A stretch of 64,000 bases of DNA from Blepharisma japonicum (taxonomy: Eukaryota; Ciliophora; Heterotrichea; Heterotrichida; Blepharismidae), in NCBI GenBank assembly GCA_949751835.1, contig CATKHK010000010.1:124001-188000 (forward strand), written 5' to 3'. Position 1 is the first letter of the stretch, and each line of letters begins with the position of its first letter. The notes under the pieces are model-generated. The model was not told the DNA's origin and did no database searches. It saw nothing but the letters and a program-made list of their open reading frames with translations. This document shows, in pieces, positions 3,853 through 24,284 of this stretch. Both the position numbers and the translations under genes were made by a program.

Positions 3853-5898
3853 TTAACTTGGCTTTAAAATAGACCATTGGTCTAGTCTTGGAGCAGGCTC
3901 ATCTTGGTTGAGCCTCCCGAACATTTTTTCTAAAGATTGCTCTTTAGGAATTCTTCTTATCGGTTTCACAGGAGGTGCTGGAACTGCTCTTACCATTAGC
4001 CCTCCCCAATCTACCTCTTGGAAGAATGGGTGTTCTTTAATTTCTTCAGCATCTCTTTTGCCAGCCCCTAATCTTTTATTTGGATCTCTAATAATAAGCC
4101 TTTTTATTAAGTCTTTTGCTTCTTCTGATAAGCTTTTGGGGATTTTTAAGACTCCTCTTTGGATGTTATTGAACAGTTGTTCACGGTTATTTGAGTAATA
4201 AGGAGGCGTTCCCACTATCATTTCATATAATAAAACTCCTAATAAATATCAATCAACTGACCTTGTATGGCCTGCTCTTCTCAGCATTTCTGGGGCTAAG
4301 TATGCAACTGAGCCACAAAAGGATTTATTGAGCTCTCCTTCATGAACACCTTCTTTGGAAAGCCCGAAGTCAGTTAATCTTGCATGCCCATCTTTGTCTA
4401 AAACAACGTTTTCAGGCTTGAGGTCTCTAAAAATAATGTCATGCATATGAAGCTCTTGTAAAGCTAATAGCACTTCAGAAATATAAAATCTAGCTTTGGG
4501 CTCGTCAAATTTTTTCTCTCTGGCTAAATGTGTCCCTAAGTCGCCATTTGGACAAAAGTCCATGACCAAAATAAGTTTTTCTGGAGTTTGAAAGGCATAA
4601 TTCAATTTCACAATATATGGATGCGATATTTTCATCAAAATATTTCTTTCTGTGAAAGCATATCTAACCAAATTATTTTCAAAGACCTTGTCTTTCCTTA
4701 ACACCTTCAATGCAAATTGTTCTCCATTATCAATTTTTTCAACCAAATAAACTTCTCCAAAACTTCCTCTTCCAAGTTGTAGAATTCCTTTGAAATCTTT
4801 AGGGCCTACTTTGCATGGTGGCAGCACATCTTTGAGCTGCCCTAGCATTTCAGCTTTCTTTTTACTGAGAGCAGGCCTCTCTTTAAACGCTTGCAAATCC
4901 TTCGCACTCGGCATATGTTTGCATTTCATTAAAATTTTGTTTATCGAATCAGTCCTTGAGTTATGCAAAATAACTGTATGAAATGGCGTGCGAGCATATA
5001 AAGACTCTGGCATTTCAAGCTTTTCCTTTTGACAATATTCCGTAAATGCATTGAAAACTTGCATATTCAATGCAACAGCCCAAGCTGTAATTCCTAAATG
5101 GTTTTTTATTGTAATATCTGGCCCTTTTCTCAACAAATATTTAACTATAGTAATATGTCCTTGCAAAGATGCATAAAAAAGGGGAGAGCTTCGTTCTATA
5201 TCAATAGCATTAATATCAGCCCCTTGGCTCACTAAAAGTTTGACAACTGGCAAGTGTCCATGAATGCAAGCTAAATGTAAAGGTGTCCTCAACATTGAGG
5301 TTTTTGCATCAATATCTGTGCTTTCCCCATTTTGGATCAAAATTTCGCAGGCATCTCTAAAGCCATCTGAAGCTGCTAAATGAAGAGCAGTTCAGTCGTC
5401 AAGGCCTTTTGTGTTGGTTTGGGCAATTAAATCTCCAAAGTTGTCTCGATCCAAAAGCTCTTTGATTCTATTAATGTCGTTTCTTTGAACTGCCTCCCAC
5501 AAAGAGGAGTTTATTTTTCTTTTCCGCTTGTAAATGTCTTCGATTTCTTCTGTTTCTTCAACAACGAGCAATTTGGCGAATTTAGCTGTGAAAGAATCCC
5601 TATTTTCATCTCTTATGTCCACTTCTTCACCAGTGTCAAGGTTTTTTACTTTAAATACTTCTTCAGGGAGATCTTCATGGACTTTGTCGGATTGAATAGG
5701 ATCAGCAGTTGAAAGGTCTAATTCGTCATTAAAATTGGGATGAGGATCAACAAATAGGACTGAGTACTCAATGGATTTCTGTTCTGGAGATACGATATTT
5801 CCGTCTAAATGAGCTTCGATTTTGATTTTATAATTATTGGTTCCAAGTGCTGCAGGGCTTTTTTTTGGGTTTTTGTTTTGGTTCTGTTTTGAACTCAT
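3853..5898 (-). CDS. Ankyrin-repeat AGC-family Ser/Thr protein kinase
   Basis: A single 681-residue frame crossed by two UGA-Trp codons (4249-4251 and 5392-5394). The order is an acidic N-terminus, ankyrin repeats at about residues 150-295 (for example TPLHLACIHGHLPVVKLLVS), then a kinase domain at about 368-630. The kinase has LGRGSFGEV, ALKVL, FRDLKPENVV, TDFGLSKEG and LAPEML, with the Y/FRD form typical of AGC kinases (PKA, PKG, AKT, S6K). The activation loop reads NKSFCGSVAYLAPE, so Ser takes the place of the usual phospho-Thr. The tail after HPFFQEVDW contains the AGC turn region but ends in WSILKPS with no clear FxxF(S/T)Y hydrophobic motif. Ankyrin plus AGC kinase is an uncommon order in animals; a targeting role for the ankyrins is an inference. 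Confidence 0.93.
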
Positions 5899-6097: not shown

Positions 6098-6892
6098 ATG
6101 TCAATTCTAGAGGATTATGAAGAAATTGATTTTTCTGTTTATGATGTTTCAACAGATATTGCCACTACACAAGCCTCACCAAAGACAAAAAAAATTCCTA
6201 GCAAGCCAAAAATTCCGCTACTGAATAAAGACACTACTGATTCAAATACTTATGATTATGAGCGCCTGTTAAAACAATACAAAGCCAGCTCTCCAACCAA
6301 TTTTCGTAAAAGTCCAAGCCCTAGATCTAACGAGGTAGTAGAAAGGCTCCTTTTTAAGCATCAGCTCTCTCAAAACCGAATAAAATTTCAGCAACAAGAG
6401 CAAGAGTATAAAGAGAAAGAAAAATGTCCGTTTGCTCCTCAAGTCTCACCCTCCAGGTCTGTAAGATGCCTTAAACAGTTCTTGCAAGATCAAATTAATT
6501 ATGAGACTAATAAGCAGCAAAAACTCGAAAAACAGAGATTTATTCATGAACAGATAAAAGAAGCTGAAGAAGAAAAAGCAAGGAAAAAAATTAATTTAAG
6601 TCCTGGCACACAAAGAATTTTATCAAAGAAGGGGAAAATGTCACCTGTTCACGAGAGGCTTTATAGTGGAAGCAAAATGATGTGAGTCACCAGCGAGAAA
6701 AAGCTGGAAACTTTGACCAGAAAGCCAATTAAACGTAAAAGTTTAAAAATGGAAAGTAATGATTTTAGCGAGGAAAATCTGGCTATATCACAAGGAAAAT
6801 CTTTTGACAGTAAACGAGTCTTGAAAAAACCTCCCTTGTCAAAGCCAGGCTTGAATAACAAATGCCATCTTAGTAAGGTAACTATAAAATAA
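6098..6892 (+). CDS. Basic, coiled-coil-prone protein of unknown function
   Basis: This is a 264-residue frame with one UGA-Trp (6683-6685). The first 80 residues are Ser/Pro/Lys-rich. A middle stretch (RFIHEQIKEAEEEKARKK) looks helical or coiled-coil, and the tail is strongly basic. A CPFAPQVS motif resembles the CPFxPxxx motif seen in many protist cytoskeletal or basal-body-associated proteins, but this is only a resemblance. It has no membrane segment. The gene is transcribed toward the helicase array, whose first start codon lies 112 bp past its stop. I do not recognise a family. Confidence 0.75.
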
Positions 6893-7004: not shown

Positions 7005-10000
7005 ATGGAGAGTGCTAGTAATAAAGCAGCTCCTGGGCAAAGAAAATCTAAAAAATCTAAATGAAAAAAGACAACATTTGAGTTTGGTTCATCAGCGAAC
7101 TCTAATCTGCCAGAAACACCAGAAATTATAATAATAACAGAAAAGAATAATAATCCTCTCAATGATATATTGCCAACAAATAAATCTGAAAATGTTATCA
7201 ATCAGCGCCAAGTGTCAGAAAAAGTAAAAGCTGAGGTTGATAGATGTTTAAATATAGCAAAAAAGTATCTCGAAAAAAGAGAATTTGATCGAGCACTTAT
7301 TTTTTCGAATAAAGCACTACAACTAAATCCCTCACCTGAAAGCTTATCATTGCTTAATGAAATACAGGAGAAAAAAGAAGAAATAATCAAAAAGCTACTT
7401 GAAGATGAAACTGAGAAATTAAAAAAAAAAAAAATTATTGAAGTGAATGAAAATTTATGCAAACAAATTATTAATAGTTCTAGCATAAATGAAGTCTTAG
7501 GAGTTGATGAGAGTACTTCAGATGAAGATACTATAAGGACAATCAAAAATTTTTTAAGGATTTTACATCCAGATAAAAATCTTGCACCAAGTGCCCAAGA
7601 AGCTACTCAAATTTTGATATCACTGAAAGATAGATTGGAAAAGAAACAAGAGACAACAGATAATCTAGGAAATGAAGAGCACAAAGAAGAGGAAACTATT
7701 TTGAAAAAAGATGAAAAACCAGAAGAAAGTGATATTTCAGATGATAGTTATAATTCTGACGAAGATATTGATAATAAGACAGAAAATACACAGAGAATTC
7801 CAAAAAGAACTCATTTTCGTAGGGCTTCAATAATAAAAGATGAGACTCAAACATCTGAAAACATCCCATATGAAGAAGATGGGAATGCTTATGAAGAACT
7901 TGAAGAATATATTTTACAGTTTTCTAATATTGAATTCTTTAGAAATCCAACCTCTGAAGAAATACCAAATGAATTTATAGATGTTGATGATTATATAGCA
8001 AAGCTTAAGGCTGCTTATTTTGTAGAGCTGCATGAGATCATTCTTAAAGCAATTAATGGAGTATTCAGTGGAAAAGAATATTTTGTTACTTTTGTGCTGA
8101 ACGATGATTTCTTTATGCTTTCACCAGAATGCTCAAGATCCACAAAAGAAGAATTTTCTTTAGAAATCCAAGCAAATGATCTTCTATTTATATGCGATGT
8201 TGAAAATTATAGCTTTATAGAAAATCATTATGATTTAAAGCAATCATCATTTAACCTAGGTATTGTGAAAAAGAATCCAAATGATAATGTTGTAAAAATC
8301 ATTTCATTACTTGAGGATGATTCAAATATTCAATATTGTGTTATCAGTATCGGAAATTTAACTACACTGAGAAGAGAGTTTTTAGCATTTACAAAAATAA
8401 AAGATGCATTACTTCTTGACCATATTTTAAGCCCAAAATTACCGAATATTTGTAATCCAATTGTTTCTCAGAAATTTTTAAATGTGATTAAAAAAAACTT
8501 CAACCAAGGGCAATATGAAGCTTTATTAAATGCCTTTAGTTTAAAAGAAGGTATAATACTTATTCAAGGCCCTCCAGGAACAGGAAAGACAGCTACAATT
8601 ATGGGGCTTATTTCTGGGTATTGATCTTCAAATTCAGAAACGAAACCAAAGATTTTGGTTTGTGCTCCAAGTAATGCTGCCATTGATGAAATAGCATCTC
8701 GCGCCAATAATAATAAGATTTTTGACGAAAATGGTAATCCAGTGTGTAGAATATCTCTATTAAGAATTGGGCAAAAAAGATTTAAAAACGAACTAGGAAT
8801 TATTGAGGATATTAACGTCAAAGATATTCCTACTAATGTAAAGGAAATTTCTTTAAATTATTTGAGTGAAAAAGACCTGAATGAGGGTGGACTTTATGAT
8901 CAAGCCCAAAATATCAAAAATAAATTAAAAAAAGAGCAAAAATTAGCAGAAAGACTAGAAAAAATGATGAAAAAGGGAAATGCTGATATAAAAAAATTTG
9001 AAGAATTAGTCAAAAAGCGAGAAGAAGTTCTGGAAGATATAGACTACTTAAAAGAAGAGCAACAAGACTATCGTGAAAACAGAAAGATAAGTAGAAAAGA
9101 ATTAATACAGGCTGCAGATGTAATTTTTTGTACAACGAGCACTGCTGGGTCAGCAGATATGCTTTCTGCATTTCAAAGCTCTAAAAATAGAATAGCTCCA
9201 CGACGGTTCGATTATTTAATTATAGATGAAGCTTGCCAATGCATTGAGCTGAACATGCTGATCCCATTTTTATATGATACTCCTACAGTGATTTTATTTG
9301 GTGACCATAAACAATTGCCAGCAACAACGTTTTCTGAAACCTCGAAGGTAAATAAATACAACCGGTCATTATTTGAAAGATTTATTGATTGTGGAATTTC
9401 TCCCCAAATTCTAAAAGTACAGTATAGGATGAGCAAAGAATTATGCCAATATCCCAGCATGTATTTTTATGATCACTTATTAAAGTCTCATCCTTCAGTA
9501 GACTTACGGCAAGCTCCACTTGGCATAAGGCCTCTTGGTTTGCTTTTTATTAACCTCACAAGATCTCAAGAAATAAGTGATCAGCATGATTATAGCTACT
9601 ATAACGAAATTGAAGCTAAATATATTGTAAAAAAAATAATTGGAGAAAATGTAACAAATTTGGGGATTATTACTCCTTATAGAAAACAAGTTGAGTGTTT
9701 GACAAAACTTCTTGATGAAAAATTTGAAGGTGACTGAAGGGATAGAATTGAAGTAGACTCTGTTGATGGATACCAAGGAAGAGAAAAAGATTTTATTATT
9801 CTTTCTTTGGTTAGGTCAAATTTAGCTACTGGAAATATTGGATTTCTTAAGGATATAAGGAGAATGAATGTAGCAATTACAAGAGCGAAATTTGGGCTTC
9901 ATATTGTCGGTAATGCTTTATGCTTGAAGAAAAATGATGATTGGGATAATTTTATTGAGTTTTGTGATAGCAAAAATAAGCTGATTCATTCTGATTATGA

Positions 10001-10175
10001 TGGAAAACAATCGTTTTGGAATCAATTAGAGCTTGAAAAGAAAATTTCTATTGATAGAAATCATAAAGGAATTGAATTCAATATAAGTGGTGAAAATCAA
10101 TTCTTAAAGAAAGGATATCATAATGTTAAAGAGAACTCTAAGTCACCTAGAGGAAATTCAGGTAAAAGAAAATAA
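7005..10175 (+). CDS. Helicase array copy A: J-domain plus Sen1/senataxin-type SF1 helicase
   Basis: A 1056-residue protein read through several UGA-Trp codons, with no intron needed. The start at 7005 adds 55 residues before a TPR-like pair of helices (about 72-115, [19 protein letters not shown]) that resembles the DNAJB12/14 N-terminus. A J-like domain follows, with H188-P189-D190 in LRILHPDKN. After an acidic linker comes a complete SF1B helicase: Walker A GPPGTGKT (K528), APSNAAIDE, Walker B DEACQ (D741-E742), [17 protein letters not shown] (about 921) and [11 protein letters not shown] (about 952). A long charged helix between the Ib motif and Walker B matches the Sen1/SETX stalk. Sen1-type enzymes unwind RNA-DNA hybrids; J domains recruit Hsp70. 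This copy is the most diverged and lacks the FWNRRK tail shared by copies B-D. Confidence 0.9.
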
Positions 10176-10434
10176 TTTGCCTAATTATTTATATATAATT
10201 TTGAGTACAAGACTTAAGCATTTAAGTACGAAATGAATGATGGTTGAATGGTTGTGGAATTATTGAAAGAGCATTTAATTGAAATTAAGTATCTCAAACT
10301 TTTAAAATTATAATTATTTATAGATCATTTAGCTAATTACTAGCTTCTTAAGTGAAATAATATTTTTGCTCTACAATTTACATTTATGATTTTTTAGGAA
10401 AAATGAGAAATGTGAAAAATTATTTTTCTGCTAA

Positions 10435-13400
10435 ATGTCAAAGAGCAAACTTGAAACAATTAAAGAAGAGACTGAGAAGACAAGTGGCTTAGAATTCTTT
10501 GAAAATTGGCTTAACATGGAAAAAAATCAAGATACTGCAAATATAGAAATTGTTGAAAATAATAGTTCTTTTGATAAAGACGCTGAAAGCAGTCTTTCCA
10601 CAAAAGATAATAATGAGCTTCGCAGATGCATTAAAATTGCCAAAAAATCTTTAAAAAAGCATGACTTCTCAAAAGCTATATCTTTCCTGACCAAAGCATG
10701 CAATATTGAGCCATCAGCTGCAAATATTCAGCTTTTAAATAATGCAAAAGAGTTAGAGATAAAGATTGCAGAAGAGAAAAGAAAGCTTGAAGAAGAAAGG
10801 AAAAAACTTTGTGAACAAGTATTAAATTCTGAAAATATTTATGAAGCTTTAAACATTGGTGTAGAAGAATCAGATGAAAACGTGAATAAAATTGCAAAAA
10901 ATGTTTTATTAAAAATACACCCAGATAAAGTAAACACTTTGAATAAAGAAGATTTTAAAATAGCCACCCAGAAGTTGAATGGCTTTAGGGAAGAATTTGA
11001 AAAAAGAATAGTCATCGATGCTGATGAAGTATGTCCTCAATTCAAAAGGACGAGCATGCCACTACCTATAGAGGATGAGAAAGCAGAAGAAAATATTCAC
11101 GAATTTAGCAATTCAGATAATTTTGGATGGACTGAAGAAGATAGTGAATTTGAAGAAGATTGTGAATTTGAAGAAGATAGCGAATTTGAAGAAGATAGTG
11201 AATTTGAAGAAGATAGTGAATTTGAAGGAGTTAAGATAATTGGAAAAAAGAGGAAATCTGATTGATATAGCTCTCAACTATATCAAGAGTTAAATAAGTT
11301 TATTTTGCAATTTAATAGAGAAGATTATCTTCAAACTTCTCCTTGGGCTAAAAAAATTTCAGATGAATTTGATGATTTTAAACATTATAAAAATGAGTTC
11401 AAAGCTGCTTTTTTTATAGAAGTGCATGAAATAATTAAAAAAGAAATTCAAGATATTGATAAATTCAAGGTTTTCAAAATGTTTTTGAAAGAAGATGGAA
11501 AAGAAAGCTATGTAGTTTCACATTTAAATAGAAATTTTTGTAAAGAATTCTATGATGAAATACAGGCAAATGATTTGTTGCTGCTGACCCCTAGTCGTAG
11601 CAATGGCTTTAAAATGTCAGATAAGATAAATTCAGACTTCCAATTAGGAATTGCAAGGAAGAATTTTAAAAGTGGATTGATTTCAATAAAAGCAAAAAAT
11701 ATTTGCAAATTTCAAATGGAATATAATATAGTGAGTCTTGGAAACTTGACCACGCTAAGAAGAGAATTTTTGACTTTGAGCAAGATTAAATATTCTTTGC
11801 TATTGGATTATATATTATTTCCTAAACCGCCGATAATTATATCAAATTCAATTGTTTCTGAGCGTTTTCTTAATACTATCAGAAATAAATATAATGAATC
11901 ACAGTTTGATGTCCTTAATAATTTGTTTCATGTGACTGAAGGAATTTCATTAATTCAAGGCCCTCCAGGAACAGGGAAAACCTCAACAATTCTTGGTCTA
12001 ATTTCAGGGTATTTGTCAGTTAAGCATATTTTGAACCCAAAAATTTTAGTTTGTGCTCCTAGCAATGCAGCAATTGATGAAATAGCTTCTAGAGCTTATA
12101 GTGATGGACTATTTGATGAAAATGGAGATCCGCTGAAATACGTTTCAATGCTTAGAATTGGCCAAAAAAAAATTAAAAACGAGCTCGGATTTTTGGAAAA
12201 TGTAAATACAAAAGAAATTCCTTCAAGTGTTAAAAAAATTTCATTAAATTATATAATAGAAGCCAAATTGAATGAGAGTGGCTTATGAGATCCAACAGAT
12301 GAAATTAAACAGAAACTAATAGCAATCGATAAATTGAATGATGAACGTGATGAAATGCTCAAAAAAGGAACCGCGAAAATTGAATTTCTTGAAAAACTAG
12401 AAATAATTTGCAATCTATTAAAAGATGAATTGGATCAGTTATATGATGAAAAGAAAATATATGCTGAGTTTCAAATGTCTTTGAAAAAAGATTATATTAG
12501 AGAATCAAAAATTATTTTTTGTACAACAAGCACAGCTGGCTCTTTAGATATGCTGAATGCATTCGCAGCAGATGATAATGGAATTTCATTAAAAAAATTT
12601 GACTTTCTTATTATTGATGAAGCATGCCAATCTATTGAACTCAGCATTTTAATTCCTTTTCTATATGACACTTCGACTGTTGTTTTAGTAGGTGATCCAA
12701 AGCAGCTTCCTGCAACAACTTTTGCAGATGCATCAAGAGCAAATAGATATAATCGATCACTTTTTGAAAGAATGGAGGATTGCGGTTTTAAACCCTTGAT
12801 ACTTAAAACACAGTATAGGATGACATCTGAACTTTGTGAGTATCCTAGTTTTTATATTTATGATCATAGTCTAAAATCTGATCCTAGCGTTGACATGAGA
12901 CAAATGCCACCTGGCATAAAGAACCGTGGCTTATGATTTTTTAACTTAGCAAATTCAACTGAAGCTATGATGAGCGATGGACATAGCTTTTACAATGAAG
13001 TCGAAGCAAATTATATTGTTAAGGAGTTGATTGGAGCAAGAGGATCGTCGATAGGCATAATAACCCCTTATAGAGCACAAGTTGAAATAATAAAGAAGCT
13101 ACTTTGAGAACGATTTGGCGATAAATGAAGACACAGAATTGAAGTGAACTCTGTTGATGGATTCCAAGGAAGAGAAAAGGACTTTATCATACTTTCTTTA
13201 GTAAGATCTACAAATATTGGATTTTTGAGTGATAAAAGAAGAATGAATGTCGCCATCACCAGAGCTAGGTTTGCATTAAATATTGTAGGAAATGTTTCTT
13301 GCTTAAGGCAGAACAATGATTGAGATGACCTAATAGACTACTGCAATAGCAAAAATAAATTGATAACTATTGGCTCTGATTCTAGTTGGGGAAGCACAAG

Positions 13401-13821
13401 AGATAGAATGCATCATTATTATAGCGATTTTGCTGAAAAAAGCAATATGAAGCAAAAAGCAAACGCAGCAATTTCTCTTGATTCTATAAATAAGAAACTT
13501 GAGGAAAAGAAATCAAGCAATAAAGAAAAAATTGAAGCTCCTAAATTAGAATACAAGGAAGTAAGCATTGATGTTAGCCCTAATAATAAAAATAAAGAAG
13601 AAAGAAAATGCATGGAAGAAACTAAAATACCTTCAAGAGAGACAAATATTAATACTATTGCTATTAATAAACCAAAAGAAGGAAAGAAAAAAGTAGAAGA
13701 AGTGAAAACTATTCAAAGAGCAGATAAAGCAGTTTCAGAAAAAAGCAATACACTACCAAAGAAAAACTCAAAAATGACAAACGCGAGTATAGGTGGAGGA
13801 CTTTGGAATAGGAGCAAATAA
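10435..13821 (+). CDS. Helicase array copy B: J-domain plus Sen1-type helicase
   Basis: A 1128-residue protein with six in-frame UGA-Trp codons. It has the same order as copy A: a TPR-like segment ([19 protein letters not shown]), a J-like domain with H162-P163-D164, a Glu/Asp repeat, then the helicase with GPPGTGKT (K515), DEACQ (D728), [17 protein letters not shown] and [11 protein letters not shown]. All ATP-binding and hydrolysis motifs look intact. A low-complexity Lys/Glu tail of about 140 residues ends in [10 protein letters not shown], a form shared with C and D. The first codon is the ATG at 10435-10437. The 50 bp before it (AAAATGAGAAATGTG, then TTCTGCTAAATG) resemble the leader before copy D, so promoter and leader were duplicated with the gene. 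Confidence 0.9.
11140..11229 (+). repeat. 18-bp in-frame minisatellite coding Asp-Ser-Glu-Phe-Glu-Glu repeats
   Basis: Five tandem copies of the 18-bp unit gatagtgaatttgaagaa, with only single-base differences, lie in the acidic linker of copy B between the J domain and the helicase. Copies C and D have a shorter acidic stretch at this place without the array, so the expansion is specific to B. Confidence 0.9.
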
Positions 13822-14003
13822 AACAAGTAAAAGTAATTATTTCATAAGTAAATTACGGCTTATTATATATTGTTAGCAGATATAATAAAAGCTATAGACT
13901 CTGAATCCTTGAGCTAGTAATATTATTAATTCATGCTCCAAAGCATATTTATTATTAATAATTATTTTTTATATTAAAACTTGTTGAAAAGTATTTGCAT
14001 CAT

Positions 14004-14375
14004 AATGATTATTTAGAGTCCAATTTTTATTCAATAGATTAAAAGCTCCATTCAGCATGTCATCAAGATCAGTAGCTCATTTGATAGCTTGACTACATGA
14101 GCTCTTTGATTCTTAAGATTCTCAATTCAATTTCTTTATAGCTGCAAGTTCTGAGAGCTCTTGAATAAAACCTTTCAAAGGCCAAAAGCTCTATCTGAAA
14201 TAGTAATAGCTGCATGCATGTAGATTAGCCAACAACACCAGTTACTTTATGATATCATAACGAAGTCCAAAATAATCCATATAAATCTACATAAATCTTA
14301 CAATAGGTATAAATATGCAAAAATTTCAAGGAAAATTTGTAAAAAATAGCGTCAAATCATCCCATACATTATTCA
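14004..14375 (-). pseudogene. Dead 3' fragment of the GPAT-like acyltransferase gene
   Basis: About 370 bp closely resemble the 3' end of the intact acyltransferase gene at about 22088-22515, including the shared stretches attatttagagtcc, aatagattaaaagctccatt and ccatataaatctacataaa. An internal deletion of roughly 60 bp and many substitutions disrupt the reading frame. Only the last third of the gene is present; there is no start, NHxNQFVD or EGGSHD part. It sits just past copy B in the same relative position and orientation as the intact gene past copy D. It is therefore best explained as the trailing end of a duplicated block. Confidence 0.85.
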
Positions 14376-14379
14376 GATA

Positions 14380-14545
14380 TATTTGATTTCTTAAGGATAT
14401 TAAAAGAATGAATGTAGAAATTACTAGAGCGAAAGTTAGGCTTCATATTGTGGTTTATGCTTTAAATTTGAAGAAAATAATGATTGGAATAATTTTATTG
14501 AGTTTTGTGATTCATTCTATTATGATGGAAAAAAATCAGTATTAA
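14380..14545 (+). pseudogene. Dead 3' fragment of helicase copy A
   Basis: This stretch resembles copy A at about 9838-9995: the piece around tttcttaaggatat and gaatgaatgta encodes a motif VI relic (KDIKRMNVEITRAK). A one-base deletion and a gap of about 20 bp break the frame, and nothing upstream of motif VI is present. It abuts the acyltransferase fragment within about 10 bp, which marks a recombination junction near 14375-14385. Confidence 0.85.
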
Positions 14546-14855
14546 GATCAAGAATCAATCATTCAAATAATAAAGAACGCGATAATTGAAGAGTTGTAGA
14601 AATATGGAAGGAGTTTTGAGTTTAAGTTAAGTTAGACTGCTTAAAATTATAATTATTTAAAGTTCATTTACCTAATACTTAGCTTCTTCAACGAAAACAA
14701 AATTAATTAGATAAATTCAATTTTACAACCCTGAAGACTTAATTTAATGATATTGTCTTTTAAATATAAAAGAGATTTTAATCTCTATGCAAATTCTAAT
14801 GAAATGAAGATAATATTTTTACTCTATAATTTATCTTTCGAGCATTTTTTCCTTA
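14546..14855. other. Non-coding leader of copy C, related to the A-B spacer
   Basis: No gene is seen here. Blocks such as ttaaaattataattattta, tagcttctt and taatatttttactctataatttat match the spacer between copies A and B (10176-10434). Together with the dead copy-A end just upstream, this shows that the A-end plus spacer unit was carried along when copy C formed. Regulatory signals for C presumably lie here. Confidence 0.7.
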
Positions 14856-17800
14856 ATGTCAATAGGTAAGCTTGAATGGATTGAATGGATTGAAGAAAAG
14901 ACTGATAGGCAAAGTGACTTAGCATTCTCTGAAAATATAACTGACATGGAAAAAATTCAAGCTTGTGAAAGTATCAAATATATTGAAAACAATGGCTCTT
15001 TAGATAGGCAAGCTGAAAGCACTCTTTCCCAAAAAGATACTATTGAGCTTCAGAGATGCAAAGATATTGCCGATAAATATTTAAAAGCCCTAGATTTCGC
15101 AAAATCTATATCTTTTCTGATCAAAGCTTGCAATATTCAGCCATCACCTGAAAATATTGAGTTACTAAATAATGCAAAAGTGATGAAGGAAGAACATGAG
15201 TGTAAAATAAGAGAAAAAGAAGAGTTGGCGAGAAAGGCAGCAGAAGATAAAAGAAAACTAGAAGAAGAAAGGCAAAAGCTATGTCAACAAATATTAATCG
15301 CTAATGACCTTTATGAAGCTTTAGGCATTGAAGAAGGAGAATCAGATGAAAGCGTGAAAAAGCTTATAAGAAAAGCTTTTATAAAAATACACCCAGATAA
15401 GGTAAAAGTTTCGAATCCTGAAGATTTTAAAGTAGCTACTCAGAAATTAAATGACTTTAAAGAAGAATTTGAAAGAAAAATAGGGATTAATTATACTAGA
15501 ATTACGCCTCGAGACTGAAGCAATAATCAGATATTGTCGATAGAGGATGAAAAATCCGAGGAAAGCGTTGAAGAATTCAGCAATTCAGATGATTCTGAAT
15601 CGAGTGAAGAAGAAGGTGAATTTGAGGAGGTTCAGAGAAGGAAAAGAACTAAAAGATCAGATTTGTTTGAGTCTAAACCATACCAGGAGCTAGAAGATTT
15701 TATTTTGAATTTTAATCGAGATTATCTCACAACTCCTCCTGATCCGAAAATAATTTCAGATGAATTTGATGATTTTGAGCAATATAAAGAAGAGTTCAAA
15801 GCAGGATTTTTTTTAGAAATGCTTGAAATTGTTAAAAAAGAAATTAATGATATAGACAAATTCAAGGCTTTTGAATTGATCTTGGAAGAAGATGAAACAA
15901 GAGGGTATATAGTTTCGCATAAAAATGATAATTTACGTAAAGAATTTTTTGATGAAGTACAAGCAAATGATCTATTGCTTCTATTCCCTTATAGTGGTGG
16001 TCGCTTTCGAATGTCAGAAGAGATATCAAATTCAGATTATTGATTAGGAATTGCAAGGAAGGACAATAAGACCGGATCGATTTTTATAAGAACAAAACAA
16101 TCAGCCAAATCTCAGTCAAATTTTAAAATAGTGAGCCTTGGAAACTTAACAACACTCAGAAGAGAATTTTTGACATTGACACTGATTGAAGAATCTTTGC
16201 TATTGGACTATATATTATTTCCAAAACCGCCTAGAATATCATCAAAATCAATAGTTTCTGAGCGTTTTCTCAATACAATCAGAAAAAAATATAATGAATC
16301 ACAGTATGATGTTCTTAATCGTTCATTTCGCATGAGTGAAGGGATTTCATTAGTTCAAGGCCCTCCAGGAACAGGAAAAACTTCAACAATTCTTGGTCTG
16401 ATTTCAGGATATTTATCAACCAATCCTATTATACGGCCAAAAATTTTAGTTTGCGCTCCCAGCAATGCAGCCATTGACGAAATTGCCTCTCGGGCTCATA
16501 ATAATGGGCTATTTGATGAAAATGGAGACCCGTTACAAGACATCACAATGCTTAGAATAGGTCAAAAAAGATTTAAAAATGAATTAGGAATTGTAGAAAA
16601 CATAAGTTCAAAAAATATCCCTGCAAGCGTTAAAGAAATCTCATTAAATTACATAATAGAAACAATGTCATATGAAGAAGGTCTAAGAGATTCAACAGAT
16701 GAAATTAAAGAGAAATTAATAGAAAGAAATAAATTGCATGATGAAATAAATGAAATGATTGAAAATGGAAAAGCAAAAGATACAATTTATGAAAACTTAA
16801 AAAGAGACCTCTGACAGTTACAAAATGACCTGAATCAGCTATTTGATGAAAAAAAATCATACACTGAGCGTCAAAAATCTTTGAAGAAAATATATATTGG
16901 ACAATCAGATGTTATTTTTTGTACGTCAAGCACAGCTGGTTCTGCAGACATGATGGTTGCATTCTCAACAGATGATAATGAAATATCATTAAGAAAGTTT
17001 GACTATCTAATTATTGATGAAGCATGCCAATCTGTTGAGCTAAACATTTTAATTCCTCTTCTATATGATACTTCGAGCGTTGTTTTATTTGGTGACCCAA
17101 AACAACTCCCTGCAACAACTTTTGCAGATGCCTCAAAAATAAACAGATATAATCGATCATTATTTGAAAGAATAGAAGACTGCGAGCTTGAGCCATTGAT
17201 GCTTAAAACACAGTATAGGATGATAACTGAGCTTTCTGAGTATCCTAGTATGTATTTTTATGATCATAAGTTAAAATCTGATCCTAGTGTTAATAGAAGA
17301 CAAATGCCCCCTGGTATCAAGTACCGTGGCTTATGATTTTTTGACTTATTAAAATCAACTGAAGCGAAGGCAAGCGATGGTCATAGCTTTTATAATAATC
17401 TTGAGGCAAAATTTATTGTTTATGAATTGCTTGGAAAGAAGCAATTGTCAATAGGCATAATAACTCCTTATAGAGCACAAGTTGAATTAATAAAGAAATT
17501 ACTCTGAAAACGATTTGGTGATAAATGAAGACACAGAATTGAAGTGGACTCTGTTGATGGATATCAAGGAAGAGAAAAGGACTGGATCATCCTCTCCTTA
17601 GTAAGATCTGAAAAGGTTGGATTTTTGTATGATAAAAGAAGAATGAATGTCGCCATCACCAGAACTAGATTTGCATTGAATATTGTAGGAAATGCTTCTT
17701 GCTTACGGCAGAATCATGATTGAGATGATCTAATAGACTACTGCAATAACAAAATAAGATTGATAATTAGTGACTATAATGGCTCAAAATCATGACGAAG

Positions 17801-18554
17801 GAGAAAAAAAGGTGGAAAATCTAATGATGGCAATACTTTTAAAAGCATCAATCAGAAGCCAAAAGCAAATGTGACAGTTATTCCTGATTCTATAAATAAA
17901 AAGACTTGAAAAATTAAAGAAAAAATAGAGGTCCCTAAATTAGAATATATTGATGATTATTCTATGTACTGAGATGAAAAATGAGATGGAAAATCTAATT
18001 ATACCAATGCTAATAGCATTGCTGAAGAGCAAAAGACAAATGAGACAATTGTCCCTGATCCAATAAATAAAAAGAAATGAAAAATTAAAGAAAAAATAGA
18101 GGCGCCTAAATTAGAATGCATTGATGCCTATTCTGCGTACTGAGAAGAAAAGTTAGATGAAAAATCTAATTATAGCAATATCAATAGCATTAGCGAGGAG
18201 CAAAAGGCAAATTCGACAATTATTTCTGAATCTATAAATAAAAAGAATTGAAAAATAAAAGAAAAAATTGAGGCTCCTAAATTAGAAAATAAAGAAGCAA
18301 GTATTGATGCTGGTGCTATATGCATACAAGAGGAAGAAATAGAGCTCATAGAAGCTAAAATACTTTCAATAGCAATAAATATTGATACTAATGCTATTAA
18401 CAAGCCAAAATATAAAAAGAAAAAAGCAGAAAAAACAAAAAATATTCCAAGAGCAGATATAGCAGCTTCAGAAAAAAGCAATGCATTGCCAAAAAAGAAC
18501 CCAAAAATGCAAAACGCAAGCATAGGCCGAGGATTTTGGAATAGGCGCAAGTAA
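14856..18554 (+). CDS. Helicase array copy C: J-domain plus Sen1-type helicase with Trp-rich repeat tail
   Basis: The longest copy, 1232 residues, read through about 14 UGA-Trp codons. It has a TPR-like segment ([18 protein letters not shown]), a J domain with H179-P180-D181, an acidic linker, then the helicase: GPPGTGKT (K508), [14 protein letters not shown] (D721), [17 protein letters not shown] and [11 protein letters not shown]. The Ala of the usual motif VI (TRAR) is Thr here. The tail is expanded by nearly three tandem 57-residue units carrying UGA-coded Trp, and ends in [10 protein letters not shown]. Many TGA codons in the tail could look like decay, but the frame is open through to TAA at 18552-18554 and the end motif matches B and D. 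I therefore read it as a whole gene. Confidence 0.87.
17862..18287 (+). repeat. 171-bp (57-codon) tandem repeat in the tail of copy C
   Basis: Two and a half copies of a 171-bp unit begin at 17862, 18033 and 18204. Each codes a segment of the form KANxTIxPxSINKKxW, then [12 protein letters not shown], then a Tyr/Trp/Asp-rich spacer in the full copies. The in-frame TGA (Trp) codons at 17907, 18078 and 18249 are exactly 171 bp apart. Copies B and D carry a single equivalent unit, so this is an expansion in C. Confidence 0.9.
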
Positions 18555-18712
18555 TTAATACCTTTGAGCTAATAATATTGTTAATTCATATAGAAATTTT
18601 GATAGATCTTTAAGTTTAAATTAAGTACTTGAGAGTTTTTTAAAATTAATTTACCTTTGCCAAGAATTTCGGGAAAAAATGAGAATTATGAAAAGTTTAC
18701 ATTCTCTGCTAA

Positions 18713-21700
18713 ATGTCAAAAATTAAACTTGAAAAGATTGAAGAAGAGACTGAGCAGCAAAGTGAGTTAGAATTTTCTAAATATAGGCTGAATATAAAAG
18801 AATATCAAGCTTTTTCAGGAACCGAAAATATTGAAAATAATGGCACTTTTGATATAGAAGCTAAAAGCAGTCTTTCCGAAAAAGATACCATTGAGCTTCA
18901 GAGATGCATTGAAATTGCCAATAATTCTTTAAAAAACCAAGAATTCGCAAAATCTATATCTTTTCTGATCAAAGCTTGCAATATTCAGCCATCAACTGAA
19001 AATATTCAGTTGCTAAATAATGCAAAAGAGAGGAAAGAAGAGCATGAGCGTAAAATAAGAGAAAAAAAAGAGTTAGCAAAAAAGAAAGCAGAAGAAAAAA
19101 GAAAGCTTAAGGAAAGACAAAAACTATGCCAGAAAATATTAAATGCTAACAATATTTATGAAGCTTTAGATATTGGAATAGAAGAGCCAGATAAGAGCGT
19201 GAAAAAAATTATAAGAAAAGTTCTTATAAAAATACATCCAGATAAGATAAAAGTTTCGAATCCTGAAGACTTTAAAAGCGCAGTCCAGAAATTAATTGGC
19301 TTTAGAGAAGAATTTGAAAGGAGAATAAGGATTAAATTTTCTGAAATATACCCCCAAGTCGAAAGCCAGGATCAGCTACTACATATAGAGGATGAAAAAT
19401 CAGAGGAAAGTGTAGAAGAATTCAGTAATTCAGATGATTCTGAATGGAGTGAAGAAGAAGAAAGTAAATTTGAAGTAGTTAAGAGAAAGAAAAAAAATAA
19501 GAAATCCGATTGAATTGAGTCTCAACCATATCAGGAATTAGACGATTTTATTTTGTGTTTTGATCGAGATAGTCTTAAAACTCCTCCTCCAGTCAAAAAC
19601 ATTTCAAATGAGTTTAGTAATTTTTATCAATATAAAGAAGAATTCAAAGCAGCGTTTTTTTTAGAAGCACATGAAATTATTAAAAAAGAAATTAAAGATA
19701 TAGACAAATTCAAGGTTTTTAAATTACTGTTAGAAGAAGATGTAAGAGGAGGCTATAAAGTTTCGCATTTAAATGACAGTTTTTGTAAAGAATTTTATGA
19801 TGAAATACAGGCAAATGATTTGCTGCTGCTACTTCCTTATAGTGGCTTTGACTTTCGGATGTCAGATGAGATAATAATTTCAGATTATTGATTAGGAATG
19901 GCAAAGAAGGACCACAAAAGTGGATCGATTTCAATAAAAGCAAAACAATGTGGCAAGTCTCAACTGGAATTTAATATAGTGAGTCTTGGAAACTTAACCA
20001 CACTCAGAAGAGAATTTTTGACTTTGACAAAGATTGAAAATTCTTTGTTATTAGATTATATATTATTTCCTAAACAGCCTAGAATATCATCTAGTCCTAT
20101 TGTTTCTGAACGTTTTCTTAATACAATCAGAAATAAATATAACCAATCACAGTTTGATGTGCTTAATCATTCGTTTCATATAATTGAAGGAATTTCGTTA
20201 GTTCAAGGCCCTCCAGGAACAGGAAAAACGTCTACGATTCTTGGTTTGATTTCAGGATATTTGTCAATCGACCAAGTTTCAAGGCCAAAAATCTTAGTTT
20301 GCGCTCCCAGCAATGCAGCCATTGACGAAATTGCCTCTAGAGCACACAATAATGGTTTATTTGATGAAAATGGAGATCAGTTGCAAGACATCTCAATGCT
20401 TAGAATTGGCCAAAAAAGATTTAAAAATGAGTTAGGAGTTTTAAGAAATGTAAATACAAAAGAAATCCCTGCAAGTGTCAAAGAAATTTCTTTAAATTAC
20501 ATAATAGAAACAGCGTTGAATGAAGAAGGTTTGCAAGACCCAACAGATGAAATTATACAAAAACAAATAGCACTCAATAAATTGCGTGATGAACTAAATA
20601 AAATGATCAGAAAAGGAAATACGAAAGGTAATTTGTTTTTAAACTTAAAAAGAGACTGCCAGATATTAGAAAATAACCTGAATCAGTTATATGATGAAAA
20701 GAATATTTACATTAAGCGTCAAATGTCCTTGAAGAGAAAATATATTGGCAAATCAGATATTATTTTTTGTACAGCAAGTACTGCTGGCTCTCTAGATATG
20801 CTGATTGCTTTTTCAGCAGATGATGATGGAAAATCATTAAAAAGTTTTGACTTTCTTATTATTGATGAGGCTTGCCAATCCGTTGAGCTTAGTATTTTAA
20901 TTCCTTTTCTATATGATACTTCGACTGTTATTTTATTTGGTGATCCAAAGCAGCTCCCTGCAACAACTTTGGCAGATGCCTCAAGAACAAATGGATATAA
21001 CCGATCCCTATTTGAAAGAATAGAAGATTGCAATTTTGCACCATTGATGCTCAAGACACAATATAGGATGATATCTGAACTTTGCGAGTATCCTAGTATG
21101 TGTTTTTATGATTCAAATATAAAATCTGATCCTAGCGTTAATAGAAGGCAAATGCCACCTGGTATAAAGCACCGTGGCTTATGATTTTTTAATTTAGAAA
21201 ACTCAACTGAAGTTATGGAGAGTGATGGACATAGCTTTTACAATGAAAACGAAGCAGCTTATATTGTTTATGAACTACTTGGGGAGAGAGGATTGTCGAT
21301 AGGTATAATAACTCCTTATAGAGCACAAGTTGAAATAATAAAGAAACTGCTTTGAAAAAGATTTGGTGATAATTGAAGACATAGAATTGAAGTGGACTCG
21401 GTTGATGGATTTCAAGGAAGAGAAAAGGACTGTATCATACTTTCTTTAGTAAGGTCTGAACATATTGGATTTTTGAGTGATAAAAGAAGAATGAACGTCG
21501 CTATTACTAGAGCTAGATTTGCATTAAATATTGTAGGAAATGCTTTTTGCTTAAGGCAAAATATTGATTGAGATGACCTAATAGAGTATTGCAATAATAA
21601 AAACAAATTGATAACTGTTAATTATGAATATTGAGGAAGTATAGGAGATGGAATATATAATTATTATAGCGATTTTATCGAGGAGCAAAAAATAAATCAG

Positions 21701-22051
21701 AATATTCCTCCTGATTCTATGGATAAGGGATTTGAGGAAAAGAAACCAAGTAATAAAGTGAAAATAGAAGCGCCTCAATTAGGATATAAGGAAGTAAGCA
21801 TTGACGTTGATCCTATCAGTAGAAGAAGGGAAGAAAGAAAACGCATAGAAGATGCTAAGCCTCAAAAAGAGACCGATATTAATACTAATGCTATAAATAA
21901 ACCAAAAGAAGAAAAGAAAAAAGCAGAAGAAGCGAAAAATATTCAAAAAGCAGACAAAGCAGCTTCAGAAAAGAGCAATACTTTGCCAAAGAAAATCTCA
22001 AAAATGACAAACGCAAATATAGGTGGAGGATTTTGGAATAGGCGTAAATAA
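18713..22051 (+). CDS. Helicase array copy D: J-domain plus Sen1-type helicase
   Basis: A 1112-residue protein with several UGA-Trp codons. It has a TPR-like segment ([18 protein letters not shown]), a J domain with H175-P176-D177, an acidic linker and the helicase with GPPGTGKT (K505), DEACQ (D718), [17 protein letters not shown] and [11 protein letters not shown]. The Lys-rich tail ends in [12 protein letters not shown]. By eye D is closest to B and C, and A stands apart. Its stop lies 49 bp from the end of the convergent acyltransferase gene. That is the arrangement echoed in broken form behind copy B, so D probably sits at the ancestral junction. Confidence 0.9.
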
Positions 22052-22100: not shown

Positions 22101-23855
22101 TTAGAGTCCAATTTCATTTAATAGATTAAAAGCTCCATTCAGCATATCATCAAGTTCAGTAGCCTTCTCCTTAAATAAATCCCCTGGCTGCAATCCTGGG
22201 AATATCTTCGGACCATGCTCATTTACTAGCTTAACTACATGCTCTTTTAGCTGAGCTCTTTGACTCTTAAGATTTTCAATTTCTCTAGGACTGCAAATAC
22301 TAAGAGCCCTTGAATAAAGCCTTCCAAAGCTGCTAAAAGCTCTATCTGAAAGTATAATAGCTACATACATGTAGATTGGCCAAGCAACACCAGTTACCAC
22401 AAGATACCAGAGAGAAGTACAAAATGATCCATATAAATCTACATAAACCTTACAATAAGTATAAATAAAAGCAACAATTTGAAGGAAAAGTGTAAAAAAG
22501 AACATCAGTACCATCCCATACACTATTTTCGTTGATGCAACTGTATCACTAGCATTTAGCTTGACTGAAGATGATATCAACGCTTTTTTTCTTTCTTTCT
22601 CTGCAATGTAGTTTAAAATCGCACCCATAAGTCCTGCTATTACCCATCCAGGAAGAGAAATTGTGAGCCCACCCATAATTCTTATCAAAGTTATCAAAGT
22701 ATATGCAATCATCTTTATTTTCGAGAAGTTCGAAAGCCTTAACTGGTAATCTTGAAGCCCAATCTTCTTTAAATTATTCGAATAAGCTTCAACATACTGC
22801 ACTAATTTTTTAAAATCAGGCAAATCTGCATACTTTTCTTTAAGCTCCTTATACCCTTTGGCAAATTTTATATTCATTTCCATATCTAAAGCTGGGTTTT
22901 CTCTAAGATGGTCAGGCTTATAAACTCTTCTTGCCATAAACACATGTGAAAGCTCATCATAAGTTGGTGCAGTGACCCATACTTCTCCAAGTCTCTAAAT
23001 ATCCTTTACATTTTCAATTTGTTTTAGCAAGATTTCTACAGCCCTTTTACGATCTCGCAAATAAAGTGATGCAAGTTCTCTAGGAATCGCATAAGGAACT
23101 CCAAAATTGACGACAGCTTTAGATCTGAATCTGTGCCCTTGGTAATAATTCAAGCCAACACATTGAATTGTGACTGTAATATTGTACCTTGACATGGCTC
23201 CTAGTGCCATTAAACATACTCCAGCCTTTAGTGGCAACAAGTTTGGTCTGTCATGGGAACCTCCTTCTGGGAATATCCCAATGCAGCCACCTTTTCTGAG
23301 CTCAGTCTGTACAGCTTCATAAATATCGTGCTGGTCTATTTTTGGCATGATCTTAAATTGCATGTCTTTAAGCCCGACAGCTGGACCCATAGGGACTATA
23401 ACAGTGTCATTTTCAACAGATTTTATAGTGATCATGAATTTTTCACACTTCATGGAGTCTCCTGGATGCACCTCAGTCACAAATTTGGTCCCAGTTCCTA
23501 TGATCCTTTTAAGATCGTCATCATAAGTAATTGTTCCAGTCCCTTTTGTAACATAATCTTGTGGTCTTTTTACAGGGATTACATGGAAAAGTCTGGCAAG
23601 CGACCCTACAACTTTCTTTTTCATTGACTAAATGGAGTTTACGCTCGCAGCCATCAGAAATGATGGTTGTCTTTTGCATTGGCTAATGATCAAGACTGGA
23701 TCCACAAATTGATTTGAGTGGTTTCCACACAAAATAACAGGCCCAGTCGAAGGAGTCAAGTGCCTCCCAACTGTTTCCACTTCTTGGAAGAAAAAAGCAG
23801 CTAAAAGTCTGAGTTAGCATTACTTTAAATAATAGCGTGCCAAGGTGAAGAGCAT
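22101..23855 (-). CDS. Glycerol-3-phosphate/DHAP acyltransferase, fungal Sct1/Gpt2 type, membrane-bound
   Basis: A 569-residue enzyme built from four exons with 15-nt introns at 23809-23823, 23628-23642 and 22995-23009. Each intron removes a stop or restores the frame. The acyltransferase signatures are GNHSNQFVDP (H41) and GIFPEGGSHDRPNLLPLKAG, the HANQFVD/EGGSHD combination known from yeast Sct1 and Gpt2. These acylate glycerol-3-phosphate in the first step of glycerolipid synthesis at the ER. The C-terminal half has several membrane segments (for example IYGMVLMFFFTLFLQIVAFI-like runs), as in that family. The start (MLFTLARYYLK) follows from splicing the first intron. It is divergent from histone H4, with 87 bp between the starts, and a broken 3' copy lies at 14004-14375. 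Confidence 0.9.
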
Positions 23856-23942: not shown

Positions 23943-24284
23943 ATGAAGGTTGAAGGAAAAGGTGCAAAAGGAATCAAAGGCAAGGGAAAAGGCAAAGGAT
24001 TAGGGAAGATTGGAGGAAAACAAAAAAGACGCCACGTTATCAGGGAAAATATACAAGGAATCACAAAGCCGGCAATTAGACGTTTGGCCCGCAGAGGTGG
24101 AGTGAAAAGGCTGAGTGGACTGGTGTATGATGAAACGAGAAATGTCCTGAAATCGTTCTTAGAAAATGTTGTACGAGATGCTGTTACGTATACTGAGCAT
24201 GCAAGAAGAAAAACAGTCACAGCACTTGATGTGGTCTATGCGTTGAAGCGTCAAGGAAGAACATTATATGGATTTGGAGGCTAA
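23943..24284 (+). CDS. Histone H4 variant with an extended N-terminal tail
   Basis: A 113-residue histone H4. The core is almost canonical ([20 protein letters not shown], then [20 protein letters not shown], ending TLYGFGG). The tail is about ten residues longer than usual and Lys/Gly-rich ([19 protein letters not shown]). Aligning back from the core without gaps, the residues at positions 16 and 20 are Gln and His instead of Lys. Two conserved modification sites would then be lost. There is no intron. The start is the only in-frame ATG near the core and shares an 87-bp divergent promoter region with the acyltransferase gene. It may be a variant used in one nucleus or stage, beside canonical H4 genes elsewhere; that is inference. 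Confidence 0.97.

Follow-up and report, generated by a model that had tools for sequence, protein, structure and literature searches.

Four adjacent genes of Blepharisma japonicum encode proteins in which an N-terminal module related to DNAJB12/DNAJB14-type J proteins is joined to a Sen1-type helicase, and both sequence and tree support a single fusion event followed by local duplication into four. The architecture of these proteins, its constraint and its kinship were supported by sequence, while Hsp70 recruitment and 5'-3' translocation are predicted properties. Our preferred reading, which is tentative and which we regard as a serious possibility, is that this once-fused, locally duplicated J/Sen1 protein would be a 5'-3' translocase that brings Hsp70 to RNA-bound protein complexes.

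The window, i.e., the whole stretch of DNA analysed, comprised 64,000 nucleotides, and four neighbouring open reading frames (ORFs) on its + strand filled positions 7005–22051. Read from ATG to stop, copies 1 to 4 spanned 7005–10175, 10435–13821, 14856–18554 and 18713–22051 and encoded, when TGA was read as tryptophan, uninterrupted proteins of 1056, 1128, 1232 and 1112 aa. The standard code broke all four ORFs, with 3, 6, 14 and 7 in-frame TGA codons, respectively. Each copy was recognised as a fusion from its single ORF and Pfam matches, complemented by a PDB search for copy 1 and a full-length AlphaFold2 (AF2) model for copy 4; thus, the four adjacent same-strand fusion genes of a preliminary description made from the sequence were confirmed, beginning and ending exactly at 7005 and 22051. 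Spacers calculated from the coordinates measured 259 nt (copies 1–2), 1034 nt (copies 2–3) and 158 nt (copies 3–4). The assembly around the window (45.2 Mb, 224 contigs) contained CCCTAACA telomere repeats, with 168 matches to a three-unit pattern and 0 in a reversed control. Blepharisma stoltei is described as having the CCCTAACA telomere repeat, UGA as a tryptophan codon and introns of predominantly 15–16 bp (PMC9942806). Separate genes joined by a reading error were ruled out, as the four copies were continuous under one code and both TGA as tryptophan and the CCCTAACA repeat agreed with Blepharisma (PMC9942806).

Pfam matches identified the neighbours of the array as genes for a biopterin-dependent hydroxylase (809–1579, +), an ankyrin-repeat protein kinase (3853–5898, -), an acyltransferase (22995–23627, -) and a histone-fold protein that was H4-like by eye (23943–24284, +). 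The neighbours at 6098–6892 and 22101–22994 had no Pfam match, and the Pfam assignments of the flanking genes revealed no functional link to the array.

The helicase half of the fusions is a Sen1-type SF1B helicase, nearer to SEN1/SETX than to UPF1, IGHMBP2 or AQR as judged from the sequences of copies 1 and 4 and the fold of copy 4. The Pfam families AAA_11 and AAA_12, which the preliminary description had named for a check, both matched all four proteins (E 9e-57 to 8e-51) and placed the helicase cores at 8499–9917, 11890–13296, 16290–17696 and 20138–21544 (all +) in copies 1 to 4. Patterns for what we take to be motifs I, II and III, as well as QYRM, VDGxQGRE and RRMNVAITR, were present in 4/4 copies, leaving SF1 motifs I, II, III, V and VI intact throughout by pattern. 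Overall, with AAA_11/AAA_12 at E ≤ 1e-50 and motifs in 4/4 copies, the helicase was as complete as had been claimed. Copies 1 and 4, the two of the four that were searched against the PDB, had solved SEN1/SETX chains as their best matches (E 5e-67 and 9e-61, respectively), followed by UPF1, IGHMBP2 and then DNA2, ZNFX1 and AQR in varying order.

Sen1 is described as combining a barrel and a prong with an N-terminal brace that is conserved (PMC5452015). A profile of the segment preceding motif I, built from 10 proteins (the four copies of the window plus 6 non-fused Sen1-like paralogues out of the 10 described below), matched SEN1/SETX at 2e-22 and UPF1 at 2e-8. Its alignment started at 31 for C. 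thermophilum SETX chains (31–260), at 100 for yeast SEN1 and at 139 or later for UPF1, a comparison at the level of the segment rather than of the brace residues. The large N-terminal helical domain of Sen1, presumably the one named SEN1_N in Pfam, had no match up to E 1 in the four proteins, and we therefore filed them as having a Sen1-type core rather than as senataxin orthologues. The full-length AF2 model of copy 4 had a mean pLDDT of 48.5, with a long, low-confidence linker and tail, so that only its better stretches carry weight. Foldseek placed SETX structures best; the top ten comprised three SETX, four UPF1 and three IGHMBP2 chains, the sole matches at E ≤ 0.001, and whole-chain TM-scores to these matches were low (0.13–0.30 by target).

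The N-terminal modules of 144–158 residues were collinear with a 351-residue DNAJB12/14-like protein encoded on contig C113 of the same genome. This protein has a DnaJ domain scoring 88.9 bits as well as a TPR-like hairpin, a hydrophobic stretch and DUF1977, in agreement with the DNAJB12/14 layout given in PMC10939069. The hairpin and J modules corresponded to residues 72–221 of copy 1 (7218–7667), 56–199 of copy 2 (10600–11031), 59–216 of copy 3 (15030–15503) and 56–212 of copy 4 (18878–19348), all on the + strand. BLASTP aligned the C113 protein with copy 1 at 34% identity over 128 columns, with copy 2 at 30% over 145 and with copy 4 at 29% over 145; copy 3 was 32% identical (E 3e-14) in the genome search only, where the copy 1 module reached E 9e-15. 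A pattern search found HPD in 4/4 copies (7566–7574, 10918–10926, 15390–15398 and 19235–19243) between helices II and III, these helices being modelled for copies 3 and 4. Together, the collinearity and the HPD tripeptides bear out the DNAJB12/14-like N-terminal module, TPR-like and HPD-bearing, that had been proposed.

Pfam DnaJ, the other family named for a check, matched all four copies, but weakly. Whole proteins scored 16.1, 17.9, 27.0 and 14.7 bits in copies 1 to 4, 0/4 above the curated cut-off of 27.8 bits, and the trimmed modules scored 19.5, 21.8, 30.1 and 18.6 bits (all E ≤ 0.0021; copy 1, E 0.0011), with copy 3 alone passing and the alignment stopping near position 44 of 63. A profile of seven J domains from the same genome, including that of the DNAJB12/14-like protein (eight loci were given and one yielded none), ranked copies 1 to 4 as its top four, above 2000/2000 shuffled modules, the lead being modest for copies 2 and 4 (12.1 and 11.9 bits vs 9.4 bits for the best shuffle). 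A spurious J motif was ruled out by this shuffle control and the collinearity with the DNAJB12/14-like protein. When a four-copy profile was compared with the PDB, the best J-domain match was DNAJB12 (2ctp, E 6.6e-7); engineered TPR repeats ranked higher as an effect of summing over their many repeats. The fusions lacked a membrane-like stretch (best 19-mer hydropathy 1.35–1.64 vs 2.45 in the DNAJB12/14-like protein), and none of the four proteins had a Pfam match to DUF1977. Since the hairpin and J domain are present and the transmembrane stretch and DUF1977 absent, the module appears related to the DNAJB12/14 family without the protein being a member of it.

Structure prediction pointed to a divergent J fold in the module as the likely state. 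When AF2 modelled the 158 aa of the copy 3 module on their own, the mean pLDDT was 83 (59–66 in the stretch after HPD), and this model had 0 Foldseek matches at E ≤ 0.001; the 50 matches listed were mostly TPR and included no J-only structure. The full-length copy 4 model matched the J domain 2ys8 with a TM(target) of 0.69 and an rmsd of 2.3 Å over 78 columns (E 0.012, rank 21). Three J helices were modelled at copy 4 residues 141–200 with block pLDDT values of 58–82, the Foldseek row giving no residues for the 2ys8 alignment. Thus, the J-fold that the preliminary description expected around HPD was found in the full-length model of copy 4 but not from the N-terminal model of copy 3 alone.

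The preliminary description had also judged that both halves look functional. This held for the helicase motifs, but the J module lacked the helix II aromatic residue (I, A, I and I in copies 1 to 4; aromatic in 0/4) in addition to its early profile end. Seven of seven canonical J domains of the same genome had Y or F at this position, and the matching tyrosine of DnaJ is a known Hsp70 contact. With this residue lost, as well as the C-terminal end of the J profile, the module might be a J-like adaptor that no longer drives the Hsp70 cycle and instead serves in docking or dimerisation, the DNAJB12/14-like protein of the same cell being one conceivable partner. We consider this unlikely, as HPDK was invariant in 4/4 copies, even though module identity between copies 1 and 3 was 35%, whereas HPD is corrupted in the adaptor of PMC10939069. 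In the J segment, omega among copies 2–4 was also less than 1 (0.60, 0.35 and 0.30), and it ranged from 0.27 to 0.60 across the J and helicase segments.

Omega over the TPR-like segment of the same copies was 0.84–1.31 (50 codons), which would suit an account in which the copies are Sen1 paralogues specific to development that carry the J module along passively, without any selected function for it. A SEN1 paralogue of Oxytricha, described as expressed preferentially in macronuclear development (PMC5312943), also fits this explanation. It nevertheless seems very improbable to us, given the invariant HPDK and the retention of the module in 4/4 copies even though, over the hairpin and J segments, synonymous divergence from copy 1 is at least 1.4.

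A search of the same genome with copy 1 identified at least 14 Sen1-like genes, together with two UPF1-like genes and one IGHMBP2-like gene; whole-genome searches were six-frame and exon by exon, the figure of 14 is a lower bound, and the UPF1-like and IGHMBP2-like labels rest on sequence reading and the tree. The Sen1-like genes comprised the four described here, an array of five on contig C3, two on C43 and one each on C109, C97 and C1. Maximum-likelihood analysis of 17 helicase cores grouped the four fusions in one clade (100/100) and separated the 14 Sen1-like proteins from UPF1/IGHMBP2 (100/99; midpoint root, with a long IGHMBP2-like branch). HPD was present in 4/4 fusions vs 0/13 other proteins (10 Sen1-like and 3 UPF1/IGHMBP2-like), the N-terminal side of the C97 protein being cut by the locus edge, and Pfam DnaJ had no match up to E 0.01 in the 10 non-fused Sen1-like proteins. 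One fusion followed by tandem duplication would be the simplest account of these sequences.

A fusion general to the Sen1-like family was ruled out by the HPD count of 0/10 among its other members (for C97, the far N-terminus lies outside the locus). The same count bears on the idea that Hsp70 is recruited in cis for the helicase itself, i.e., for its folding, solubility, turnover or release from RNA, rather than for target remodelling. This would produce the same anatomy, and the long, low-confidence linker and tail of the copy 4 model are compatible with it; however, the absence of HPD from the 10 non-fused paralogues (with C97 cut as above) suggests that such help is not generally needed, and we find the idea distinctly unlikely.

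The five Sen1-like helicases encoded by the C3 array (L010–L014, 176.7–193.7 kb) had no J domain. Four of them have a putative N-myristoylation start, MGC or MGS, which in one case follows an extra Met. Combinations of J domain and helicase were also sought elsewhere. Among prokaryote-labelled contigs, the best 80 of at least 359 relatives (bacteria or archaea) contained 72 helicase ORFs by motif and no J match better than E 0.14. In viral contigs, 600 stretches fitted a pattern and 0 were confirmed by tblastn.

Identity over the helicase core was 56–58% between copy 1 and the rest and 72–77% among copies 2–4. The duplications are old rather than recent on this sequence evidence, because helicase dS was 0.43–0.49 among copies 2–4 and 1.6–1.8 to copy 1, values that rule out recent amplification. 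The recent adaptive growth suggested in the preliminary description was supported neither by these values nor by the omega of the J and helicase segments in copies 2–4. Its fast-changing tails were real: the tails diverged faster than the core, and tails and acidic linkers were less conserved than the core and contained in-frame repeats. These included 18-nt in-frame repeats in the acidic linker of copy 2 (11097–11270, +; repeat family D11), which also contained the most acidic 30-mer, and three 171-nt in-frame tandem repeats in the tail of copy 3 (17840–18352, +; repeat family D12; 81% and 64% identical to the first).

The array has also lost material, as indicated by a decayed remnant between copies 2 and 3 (13993–14850, no strand assigned), in which blastn/tblastn identified a piece of the 22101–22994 gene next to the 3' end, with 3' flank, of a copy-1-type helicase. 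Synonymous divergence between the TPR-like segments of copies 3 and 4 (15030–15179 vs 18878–19027) was 0.09 over 50 codons, cf. 0.26–0.89 in the other segments of this pair; the low value suggests either a tract of gene conversion or, the stretch being short, chance. Copies 2–4 shared a conserved peptide of ~20 residues at the C-terminus (before 13821, 18554 and 22051) that was absent from copy 1; a search of the same genome with the copy 4 tail returned copies 2–4 and one match at E 0.34.

Under our preferred reading, a Sen1-type SF1B helicase acquired, in one event in the lineage of this ciliate, the hairpin and J domain of a DNAJB12/14-type J protein, a soluble N-terminal portion without the membrane anchor, and local duplication of the fused gene then gave the four copies. 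The core would act as a 5'-3' translocase on RNA or RNA-DNA, with the helicase loading on RNA and the acidic/basic linker serving as a flexible tether. The J domain would place ATP-bound Hsp70 on a bound protein machine, such as a stalled polymerase or an RNP, and translocation and Hsp70-driven disassembly would act together. Basic clusters occurred N-terminally in copy 1 and within the linker in copies 3 and 4, with none in copy 2 by the same rule; along with the absence of a membrane stretch, the clusters of copies 1, 3 and 4 would suit a nuclear protein. By analogy with the developmental SEN1 paralogue of Oxytricha, a developmental transcription role for the array is a candidate, and the roles in R-loops or transcription termination named in the preliminary description are likewise putative. 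Possible, though doubtful in our estimate, is the more specific proposal of a class of cellular helicases with a built-in Hsp70 recruiter, a four-gene family of Sen1-type translocases in the ciliate macronucleus in which travel along nascent RNA would be coupled to the eviction of polymerase or RNP by chaperones.

It is still debated how Sen1/senataxin displaces polymerase or removes proteins bound to RNA. If our preferred reading is true, these proteins would be a translocase tethered to an Hsp70 recruiter, in which a role for Hsp70 in removing obstacles becomes testable through a single HPD mutation. The fusions share with Sen1/senataxin the AAA_11/AAA_12 core, the motifs and a pre-core segment best matched by SEN1/SETX chains, but differ by the N-terminal J module; with at least 14 Sen1-like genes in the genome, one-to-one orthology with Sen1/senataxin is not established. 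Like DNAJB12/DNAJB14, they have a helical hairpin at the N-terminus and then a J domain, in collinear arrangement, but differ in that the J domain is divergent and neither a transmembrane-like stretch nor a DUF1977 match is present.

In Cwc23/DNAJC17, the J protein and the helicase are on separate chains, and the likeness of this and other J proteins found beside RNA helicase steps is that of a J protein near a helicase step. Cwc23/DNAJC17 is described as a J protein tied to splicing factors (PMC5473770). The Oxytricha paralogue is, as here, a Sen1 duplication in a ciliate (PMC5312943), in a paper whose main text contains 'DnaJ' 0 times. A literature search at the level of titles and abstract starts, covering part of larger result sets, found no published J-domain/Sen1 fusion.

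Polyomavirus large T antigen is viral, and its helicase belongs to SF3, a different superfamily from the SF1 AAA_11/AAA_12 helicase of the fusions; no sequence kinship is claimed. As in the fusions, a J domain and an ATP-driven helicase are combined in one chain, and the N-terminal J domain is described as binding HSC70 and contributing to replication (PMC3475652). The new design suggested in the preliminary description calls for a caveat, since large T antigen is already a chain with a J domain and a helicase (PMC3475652). The fusion combines two known kinds of protein, and the idea of a J domain with a helicase has a viral precedent. It suggests that nucleic-acid motors can capture J domains in a cellular genome, as in the viral T antigen.
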